From assembly GCA_029260075.1 (NCBI GenBank), contig JAJDDY010000087.1, positions 248,001-312,000 on the forward strand: 64,000 nucleotides of DNA, written 5' to 3'. Origin of the DNA: Phycisphaerae bacterium (GTDB taxonomy: Bacteria > Planctomycetota > Phycisphaerae > UBA1845). The translations under genes were made by a program, and so were the position numbers. A model generated the notes under the pieces. It had not been told where the DNA came from and did not search any database. It saw nothing but the letters and a program-made list of their open reading frames with translations. Shown here in pieces: positions 61,056 through 63,360 of this stretch (positions are counted from its first letter, which is position 1; every line of letters begins with the position of its first letter).

Positions 61056-62327
61056 TCAATAAACGCGAGTCAGATTCGCTCCGGGGAAGTAATAGCGAAC
61101 GATCGCGCCGGCGGGTTGACCGGACCGGGCCAAACCTTCCATGCCCCATTGGCAAAGTCCCAGACCATGTCCGAACCCGCGACCGCGCTTGAGCACCAGA
61201 TGGTCGCCTTTCACGCCAATGCTGCAGTCGGTGCTGCGCATGGTCGAACCCCCAATCGCCAGACGAAACCGCTCAGCCAACAACTCCCATGACTGGCCTG
61301 ACGTGTCCGTCACGCGAACGCGAACGGGACGACCGGACGGCGTTCGATCCGTCACATCGATCGAATCGATGCGCCGCAACGATCGCATGGTCGAAAAGCG
61401 GGCCTTGAGTCGCGAGCGAACTTGGCTCAGTTTCATTCGAACCGGACCCCATCGATAGGACTTCCCCGGTGCAATTTTGCAATGGTCGCAACCCACGCCG
61501 CCGCGCAGCGGTTCGATGTCGTTGGCTTCGCCGAAGATGGCTGCTGATTGAGACATTCCACCACAGGCCGCGCTATAGTAGGTGCATACCAAACGTTCCT
61601 CGCCGGACTGCTCGGCTGTGACGACGACACCCCGCGTATAGTCAGCCGCCTGCGCCGCACGCCGTCCCGTCTCATCGAATCGCAAACCCCGGTAGACCTG
61701 GGCACCTTGCGTTGACGCGACGTCGTACCGGGCGTGGTTCCTGTCCATCATTTCATAGAGCACAAACGACCGTGCGACTATGGCCTGCGCCCGGTAGGCC
61801 TCCGTATCGAACGTCGGCCAAATCTCCCGAGCCACGACGCCGGCGACGTATCGCTCCGCGTCGACGAGGTTGATCAAATCAAGACGTCGTGCGTCGACGG
61901 TAATGCGGATCGACCCCGGATATTGATCGGGCAACGCCCAATCGCCTTTCCGAAAGACGGACAGGCTGATCGGAGACTCGGCGTCGGCGCTAACCGTACA
62001 CTCTATCCCCGACCACTCTTGGCCTACGACGCGAAGTGCGGAATTCTTGGACGGTTCGACGACATACCAGTCGTCACCCGGCAGTTCATGCGCCGATTCG
62101 TCCTCATCGCACACGATGTGCAATCCGGCGTCAGCGCGAAGGCGTACCCTCGGCGCGTCCGAAACAATCAGCACGCGTACGTCGCGAAGGGGGTCGGGTT
62201 TGTAGGCTACTACAGGATGTTGAGGTGCTGTCGTAGTACGGCGACAGGAAGGTTGGGCGATTAGTGTGATGGAGACGATCGCCGCCGCGTGCAACATCCG
62301 GCCCGGTGTCTGGCCAAAACCAAACAT
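61056..62327 (-). CDS. SpoIID/LytB-domain protein
   Basis: 423 residues with GGAG about 10 bases before ATG 62327. A signal peptide ends in a lipobox-like LIAQPSC. Residues about 140-410 match the SpoIID domain: RRLDLINLVDAERYVAGVVAREIWPTFDTEAYRAQAIVARSFVLYEM, YDVASTQGAQVYRG, A-YTRGVVVTAE, TYYSAACGGMSQSA, and the C-terminal GRGFGHGLGLCQWGMEGLARSG with YFPGANL. SpoIID of Bacillus is a lytic transglycosylase acting on denuded glycan. Homologues in non-sporulating bacteria are linked to peptidoglycan turnover. The catalytic Glu in VVAREIWP is present. Confidence 0.92.
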   Translation of the reverse strand: MFGFGQTPGRMLHAAAIVSITLIAQPSCRRTTTAPQHPVVAYKPDPLRDVRVLIVSDAPRVRLRADAGLHIVCDEDESAHELPGDDWYVVEPSKNSALRVVGQEWSGIECTVSADAESPISLSVFRKGDWALPDQYPGSIRITVDARRLDLINLVDAERYVAGVVAREIWPTFDTEAYRAQAIVARSFVLYEMMDRNHARYDVASTQGAQVYRGLRFDETGRRAAQAADYTRGVVVTAEQSGEERLVCTYYSAACGGMSQSAAIFGEANDIEPLRGGVGCDHCKIAPGKSYRWGPVRMKLSQVRSRLKARFSTMRSLRRIDSIDVTDRTPSGRPVRVRVTDTSGQSWELLAERFRLAIGGSTMRSTDCSIGVKGDHLVLKRGRGFGHGLGLCQWGMEGLARSGQPAGAIVRYYFPGANLTRVY

Positions 62328-62382: not shown

Positions 62383-63360
62383 TCAGTCACCCGCTTGGCG
62401 AAGCGACAGACCTTGCTTCGCCAACTCGCGTTTGATCTCTGTGAGTGAGGTCAGTCCGAAATTCTTGATGGTCATCAGCTCGGACTCTGACCGCTCGCAC
62501 AACTCGCCAAGCGTCGCGGTACCGAGTCGCTGCAACGCCTTTCGCGAACGAACCGAGAGTTCCAGCTCACTCACCGAACGCGAGGAGTGCAACGAGTCCT
62601 GCCCCATCGCGGGCGCGGTGCCACCGACCATGGAAACGCCAGCCGTTGGTAGAGACTGGCCAAGGTGCAGGTTTTTTTGCGCCAGCAGCGCCTTGATTTC
62701 CGTAAGCGACGTATCGCCGAAGTTCTTGTAAGAAAGGAGCTCCGCTTCGGTAGTCTTGAGCAAGTCGCCGAGGGTGGCGATGTTCATCTGACGGAGGCAG
62801 TTACGACTACGCACACTAAGCTCGAAGTCGCCCACGGGCATATCGAGCACCGCATAGTGGCGTTCCTGCTCTTGCTGTGAGTGCTCGTCGAACACCATCG
62901 TATGGGAGCTCTTGACGGACTTGAGCAGGTGCCTCGCGCGAAAATGGTCCGGGTGTTCGTCGAGAACGGCACCCAAGCATCGCTCCGCCATGTCCAACCG
63001 GCCATGCTCTTCGTACAGCACGGACAGGTTGATCAGCGCGTTGACGTGTACCGGATCTTGCTCGGCGCACCGCTCGTACAATTCGATGGCTTTGTCGTCA
63101 TCTCCGTGTTGATCGCACAAGAACGCCGCGCGAAACGTGGCTTCGACGTGATCGGGGTGTGACTCCGTCATCGCCAAATAGGTGTCGAGAGCGGTCGCAC
63201 GATCGAACGACATTTCCGCCAGGTAGCCGCGCAGGAACGTAAGCTCTGCGCGATTGTCGTCTGTTTCCGTTGTCCCTTCCAAAGTCTTAGCCGCTCGATC
63301 AAGCTTGCCACTTTGGATCAACTTCGCAACACCGTTCAACGTCTCGGTGGCCGTGGTCAT
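62383..63360 (-). CDS. TPR protein with two RNA polymerase alpha C-terminal domains
   Basis: 325 residues from ATG 63360 (a TTG two codons upstream is possible). Residues about 20-155 are tetratricopeptide-like repeats (ALDTYLAMTESHPDHVEATFRAAFLC, AIELYERCAEQDPVHVNALINLSVLYEEHGRLDMAERCL). Residues about 175-245 and 265-325 are two alphaCTD modules, each with the helix-hairpin-helix pattern of RNA polymerase alpha: LSVRSRNCLRQMNIATLGDLLKTTEAELLSYKNFGDTSLTEIKALL and LSVRSRKALQRLGTATLGELCERSESELMTIKNFGLTSLTEIKREL. The alpha assembly domain is missing, so it is not RpoA. It may bind AT-rich DNA or transcription factors in place of, or in competition with, RpoA. It ends the gene block. 55 bases separate it from the SpoIID gene, in the same direction. 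Confidence 0.93.
   Translation of the reverse strand: MTTATETLNGVAKLIQSGKLDRAAKTLEGTTETDDNRAELTFLRGYLAEMSFDRATALDTYLAMTESHPDHVEATFRAAFLCDQHGDDDKAIELYERCAEQDPVHVNALINLSVLYEEHGRLDMAERCLGAVLDEHPDHFRARHLLKSVKSSHTMVFDEHSQQEQERHYAVLDMPVGDFELSVRSRNCLRQMNIATLGDLLKTTEAELLSYKNFGDTSLTEIKALLAQKNLHLGQSLPTAGVSMVGGTAPAMGQDSLHSSRSVSELELSVRSRKALQRLGTATLGELCERSESELMTIKNFGLTSLTEIKRELAKQGLSLRQAGD

Follow-up and report, generated by a model that had tools for sequence, protein, structure and literature searches.

The window, a stretch of 64,000 nucleotides from a Phycisphaerae bacterium, carries a gene for a protein in which a TPR array is followed by two copies of alphaCTD, the C-terminal domain of the RNA polymerase alpha subunit (CTD1 and CTD2). 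The domains were already known and alphaCTD-like stretches are known elsewhere; what appears to be new is a TPR and two-CTD family that is not an alpha subunit. The architecture, the conservation, the single origin and the near-universality of this TPR-CTD protein in the Planctomycetota are established, and its fold is given by prediction. Its probable role is that of a transcription factor throughout the phylum.

Domain architecture and predicted structure

The gene is a minus-strand open reading frame with its ATG at 63360 and its stop at 62383 (Table 1). RNA_pol_A_CTD (PF03118) matched the 325-aa product in two stretches with an E-value of 1.5e-40. The N-terminal part matched TPR families above the Pfam cut-offs, namely TPR_19 (1.5e-12; 48.1 bits versus 25) and TPR_14 (42 versus 23.5). 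The NCBIfam RpoA models matched by their C-terminal ends only and far below the cut-off (138 versus 302 bits), indicating that the assembly domain, i.e., the alpha N-terminal domain, is absent. These searches agree with the earlier note, which had described two alphaCTD modules behind a TPR array and a missing assembly domain, and the NFG-TSLTEIK segment that it had singled out is present in both modules. A chance match or annotation noise was ruled out by the E-value and by the two copies seen throughout the orthologues.

Table 1. Features of the TPR-CTD locus in the window.
Feature	Position	Strand	Evidence
Gene for 325-aa TPR - alphaCTD - alphaCTD protein	62383..63360	-	ORF and translation; homologues in 238/244 phylum genomes
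TPR array, aa 1-139	62944..63360	-	Pfam TPR, AlphaFold2, TPR structures in Foldseek/VIA, orthologue lengths, entropy
Long conserved helix, aa 140-172, TPR-to-CTD1 connector	62845..62943	-	AlphaFold2, alignment, mean entropy 1.76
CTD1, canonical alphaCTD, aa 173-233	62662..62844	-	Pfam, residue conservation, fold matches
Variable linker, aa 234-259 (241-253 disordered in model)	62584..62661	-	AlphaFold2, entropy
CTD2, alphaCTD with K at N268 position, aa 260-320	62401..62583	-	Pfam, residue conservation, fold match
SpoIID-like gene (PF08486, E=2.9e-18), directly downstream	61056..62327	-	ORF, Pfam, synteny

The AlphaFold2 model, built with a 50-sequence alignment, had a mean pLDDT of 92.5 and a pTM of 0.61. 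Its order is TPR helices, which were modelled with confidence, a long helix, the first CTD, a disordered linker and the second CTD. The CTD pair predicted alone had a pLDDT of 78.5. In fold comparisons, CTD1 matched the alphaCTD of Caulobacter in complex with AT-rich DNA (9zum_A; Z 13.3, rmsd 2.1 over 76), and CTD2 matched the E. coli alphaCTDs 8y5t_A2 (Z 13.2, rmsd 1.1 over 67) and 1lb2_E (Z 12.3, rmsd 0.9 over 66). Spx and CAP complexes of alphaCTD were also among the fold matches of the CTDs. The TPR part matched 9gzg_A (Z 18.2, rmsd 2.5 over 153). It shares the TPR superhelix with MamA, YrrB and consensus TPR proteins, all of which are without CTDs, and this similarity says nothing on the ligand. 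Most orthologues are about 100 aa longer than the window protein in the N-terminal TPR region, and the family consensus of the joining helix ends with YDExxERxxDRxxQxLxIP.

Two alignments of the family were used. Alignment A1 held 50 of the 53 fetched orthologues (L007, L016 and L032 were left out, and the window protein stood in place of L004), and alignment A2 was made without L016, L083 and L101. L072 is a duplicate of L026.

Distribution and origin of the family

The distribution across planctomycetes, a check proposed in the earlier note, proved near-universal, so that the protein is no speciality of a single species. Of 244 Planctomycetota genomes, 238 have a long homologue at E <= 1e-34, whereas the remaining six (G007, G029, G111, G133, G162 and G195) gave RpoA-like scores only; these genomes may be incomplete, and G133, for example, still has three PF03118 copies. 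In a closer sample the protein was present in 57/60 genomes, in one of them as a 131-aa fragment. Among 148 genomes with a completeness of at least 90%, 125 have three PF03118 copies, 5 have two, 1 has one and 17 have four to six. Three copies correspond to one RpoA plus the pair in the TPR protein, and the window genome has exactly three matches in total.

Additional PF03118 matches were noticed in short open frames at G155:C1:4088706-4088888 (155 aa), G188:C14:61784-61975 (109 aa) and G112:C4:337088-337279 (137 aa), which are possibly standalone alphaCTD proteins. Two or three additional, weaker matches lie in open frames of 701-822 aa (G017:C19:17212-17892, G175:C151:1396-2082 and G054:C215:8340-8804).

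Exactly two CTDs were present in all 53 fetched orthologues and in all of the 80 best named loci. The set of 53 leans to close relatives because 30 of them are the best matches of the phylum search, and the 80 loci overlap with it (L142 with G053:C34 and L171 with G071:C45, for example), such repeats being kept. One genus includes two genomes (G082 and G219; L222 and L227) that have lost CTD2 while keeping CTD1 with all its contact residues. A third genome of this genus, G178, likewise has no more than two PF03118 matches.

In a tree of 157 domains, built from few columns and with a bootstrap that had not settled, CTD1, CTD2 and RpoA-CTD each fell on one side of a branch (95/97, 99/87 and 98/90, respectively). 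Since each is one supported group, the TPR-CTD protein represents one ancient family, and the fusion most likely goes back to one event early in the evolution of the phylum. The best 80 of 584 contig matches were of Planctomycetota type by title, save three (one Alphaproteobacteria and two named only 'bacterium'). An origin as a mobile element or phage gene was rejected, as no match covered 80% of the protein in the 61 plasmid and 14 phage records with any match. The annotated matches among those plasmid and phage records listed are rpoA, and Streptomyces accounts for 21 of the 61 plasmid records.

Relation to the resident RpoA

The window genome has a separate, normal rpoA on another contig (G000:C20), between ribosomal protein genes that were identified as those of S4 and L17 by reading of the sequence. 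This intact gene and the single origin of a phylum-wide family ruled out a broken or duplicated rpoA fragment. The TPR-CTD protein and RpoA have the PF03118 domain family and its predicted fold in common, and CTD1 retains the DNA-contact and sigma-facing residues. Unlike RpoA, the TPR-CTD protein has no N-terminal assembly domain, carries two CTDs per chain and has a TPR array in front; its gene stands separately beside a normal rpoA, rather than being the sole alpha gene next to rpsD/rplQ.

The RpoA of the window genome (L002:1326-2448) has His at the N268 position, where 29/30 RpoA of its family have Asn. The His prompted the idea that the DNA-binding Asn had been handed over from the RpoA of this lineage, which was rejected because of these 29 proteins. 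Only the sigma-facing pair has drifted in the same-family RpoA, with an acidic residue at 259 in 13/30 and at 261 in 11/30.

Conservation of the DNA-contact residues

For the comparison of contact positions, the E. coli residue numbering was checked. Beyond R265 and N268, the DNA contacts of alphaCTD include C269, G296, K298, S299 and E302. In the E. coli alphaCTD, R265 and N268 are reported to contact DNA and to be critical for DNA binding, and changes of N268 to A, T, D or W to damage function (PMC11434276). In CTD1 of the window protein the equivalent residues are R184 (R265), N187 (N268), C188 (C269), G215 (G296), T217 (K298), S218 (S299) and E221 (E302), and D178 and E180 correspond to 259 and 261.

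Among the 53 orthologues, CTD1 has R265 in 53, N268 in 52, C269 in 49, G296 in 53, S299 in 51 and E302 in 53. The 80 named loci, which overlap with these orthologues, have R265, N268, G296, S299 and E302 in 80/80 each. The five positions R265, N268, G296, S/T299 and E302 were kept together in 52/53 CTD1, compared with 43/50 RpoA of the phylum (a set of 50 out of 57 genomes with a match). The K298 position is Thr in 47/53 CTD1; judged from these sequences the exchange is neutral, since 49/50 phylum RpoA have Thr there as well.

CTD2 of the window protein has R271 (R265), G302 (G296), S305 (S299) and E308 (E302). Among the 53 orthologues, R265 and E302 are kept in all CTD2, G296 in 51 and S299 in 50, but N268 in only 4. 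The N268 position is occupied by Lys in 31 and by Arg in 15, i.e., by a basic residue in 46/53, and in 79/80 of the named loci, suggesting that CTD2 is not a second identical reader of the UP element. The earlier note had held that systematic loss of DNA-contact residues in orthologues would speak against its reading. Such loss was not observed in CTD1 but did affect CTD2 at N268. Likewise, the two consecutive modules it reported are there but are not equivalent, given this substitution and the absence of CTD2 in two genomes of one genus.

By resampling, the contact positions showed higher conservation than the remaining domain positions in CTD1 (p 0.014), CTD2 (p 0.007) and RpoA (p 0.0001). 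The mean entropy in the family alignment was 0.86 for CTD1, 1.50 for CTD2, 1.76 for the joining helix, 2.30 for the TPR part (aa 1-137) and 2.96 for the linker. Hence, CTD1 is the part under the strongest constraint, and the TPR array is the most variable folded part. E286 is kept in 52/53 CTD1. The 287 determinant, which CRP-type activators contact, showed no particular conservation (mean entropy 1.19).

Conservation of the sigma-facing residues

The alphaCTD residues 259 and 261 of E. coli meet the basic K593 and R603 of sigma region 4, and we take this acidic pair to be the sigma-facing determinant of alphaCTD. Acidic residues at both positions were found in 53/53 CTD1, 25/50 RpoA and 25/53 CTD2. 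Where a genome has both genes (36 genomes), CTD1 exceeds RpoA in acids in 19, equals it in 17 and falls below it in none. On the sigma side, housekeeping-type tails have R603 in 29/29 and K593 in 28/29, these tails coming from 29 of 30 loci and including paralogues of some genomes. The conservation of the acidic pair of CTD1 could also serve another partner.

Gene neighbourhood

Synteny was examined with open reading frames from our own caller, and loci cut by contig ends were kept in. The SpoIID-like gene is the +1 neighbour in 57/80 named loci, mostly of the window's class. Of 40 diverse loci, 16 have ruvA and 9 a SpoIID-like gene at +1, and ruvA takes this position in 1/80 named loci. At least one of SpoIID, tgt, yajC, secD and ruvA lies nearby in 30/40 diverse and 66/80 named loci, with tgt, yajC and secD farther along from the TPR-CTD gene. 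The order tgt-yajC-secD is common to many bacteria. The neighbourhood is an old housekeeping context that names no function by itself, and the SpoIID-like gene is not claimed as part of the mechanism. These frequent neighbours are not transcription genes, which counts against a transcription factor.

Known relatives

Stretches of alphaCTD outside RpoA are represented by the BREX PglW model NF033442, the standalone PRK07758/NF005841 and the beta' model NF011498. All three models match the TPR-CTD protein, but far below their cut-offs, and their partner domains differ from those of the TPR-CTD protein. The AfsR/SARP regulators of Streptomyces, as described in PMC10936776, are TPR-bearing transcription regulators too; however, they activate via a SARP DNA-binding domain, whereas the TPR-CTD protein has its own alphaCTDs. 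The available part of the open-literature search results contained no functional description of the TPR-alphaCTD-alphaCTD family, and the available passages of PMC10632474 (on P. limnophila essential genes), PMC8103513, PMC12283558, PMC4693257 and PMC2613000 held nothing on the TPR-CTD protein.

Proposed function

We lean towards the view that the TPR-CTD protein is an alphaCTD acting in trans, as a core planctomycete transcription factor or a polymerase accessory, although with reservations. We infer DNA binding, contact with sigma or polymerase, a TPR ligand and an effect on transcription. The helix-hairpin-helix of CTD1 would put its R265-type arginine into the minor groove of AT-rich promoter-upstream DNA, with the acidic 259/261 pair facing the basic patch of sigma region 4. 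CTD2, with a basic residue for N268, may bind more weakly or in an altered way, and either add to the backbone affinity or make a protein contact. A peptide of a partner would sit in the TPR superhelix, and the protein could thus recruit this partner to promoters or enable it to modulate how transcription starts, either alongside the alphaCTDs of the polymerase or as their substitute. That CTD1 is intact in both genomes that lost CTD2 appears to support such a role. The idea of a possible regulator raised in the earlier note therefore holds as a possibility, now with a confirmed architecture. A further-reaching proposal is that the phylum moved part of promoter reading to a separate protein, with CTD1 as the strictly kept alphaCTD that faces sigma and DNA and with the alphaCTD of RpoA drifted at 259/261, so that many promoters would need a diffusible alphaCTD, under the control of a TPR ligand, to start transcription; this we regard as rather doubtful.

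The CTDs might instead act as a decoy or adaptor that replaces the polymerase's alphaCTD in binding activators, sigma, NusA or Spx-like factors, with the TPR part sequestering or delivering them and DNA binding being secondary. The invariant acidic pair and the retained E286 of CTD1 would fit, as would the fold matches to Spx and CAP complexes, alphaCTD being a known protein hub, and the departure of CTD2 from the DNA-reading sequence at 268. A pure protein decoy, however, would not need the groove-contact residues that CTD1 keeps as strictly as RpoA does, and we consider this explanation unlikely.

A role of the helix-hairpin-helix pair in recombination, repair or nucleoid organisation, with the TPR part as a scaffold, is suggested by ruvA as the next gene in 16/40 diverse loci, by the helix-hairpin-helix domain that RuvA likewise has, and by the basic residue at 268 of CTD2, which could give non-specific binding. 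It is less probable still, because the fold and sequence are those of alphaCTD and not of a general helix-hairpin-helix, the acidic pair would have no evident task in such a factor, and the neighbour in the window's class is SpoIID instead. The yajC, secD, tgt and SpoIID-like neighbourhood could also point to a link between transcription and export or the envelope, in which the TPR part binds Sec or envelope partners and the CTDs hold transcribing polymerase. Such a link seems very improbable, as the common gene order may mark only an old chromosomal context.

Here a near-universal phylum protein of single origin carries two copies of a domain that is tied to polymerase in well-studied bacteria. 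Should it work at promoters, transcription initiation in planctomycetes involves a component that textbook models lack, and regulatory work on these bacteria would have to take it into account. The TPR-CTD protein also offers a clean test of alphaCTD action in trans.
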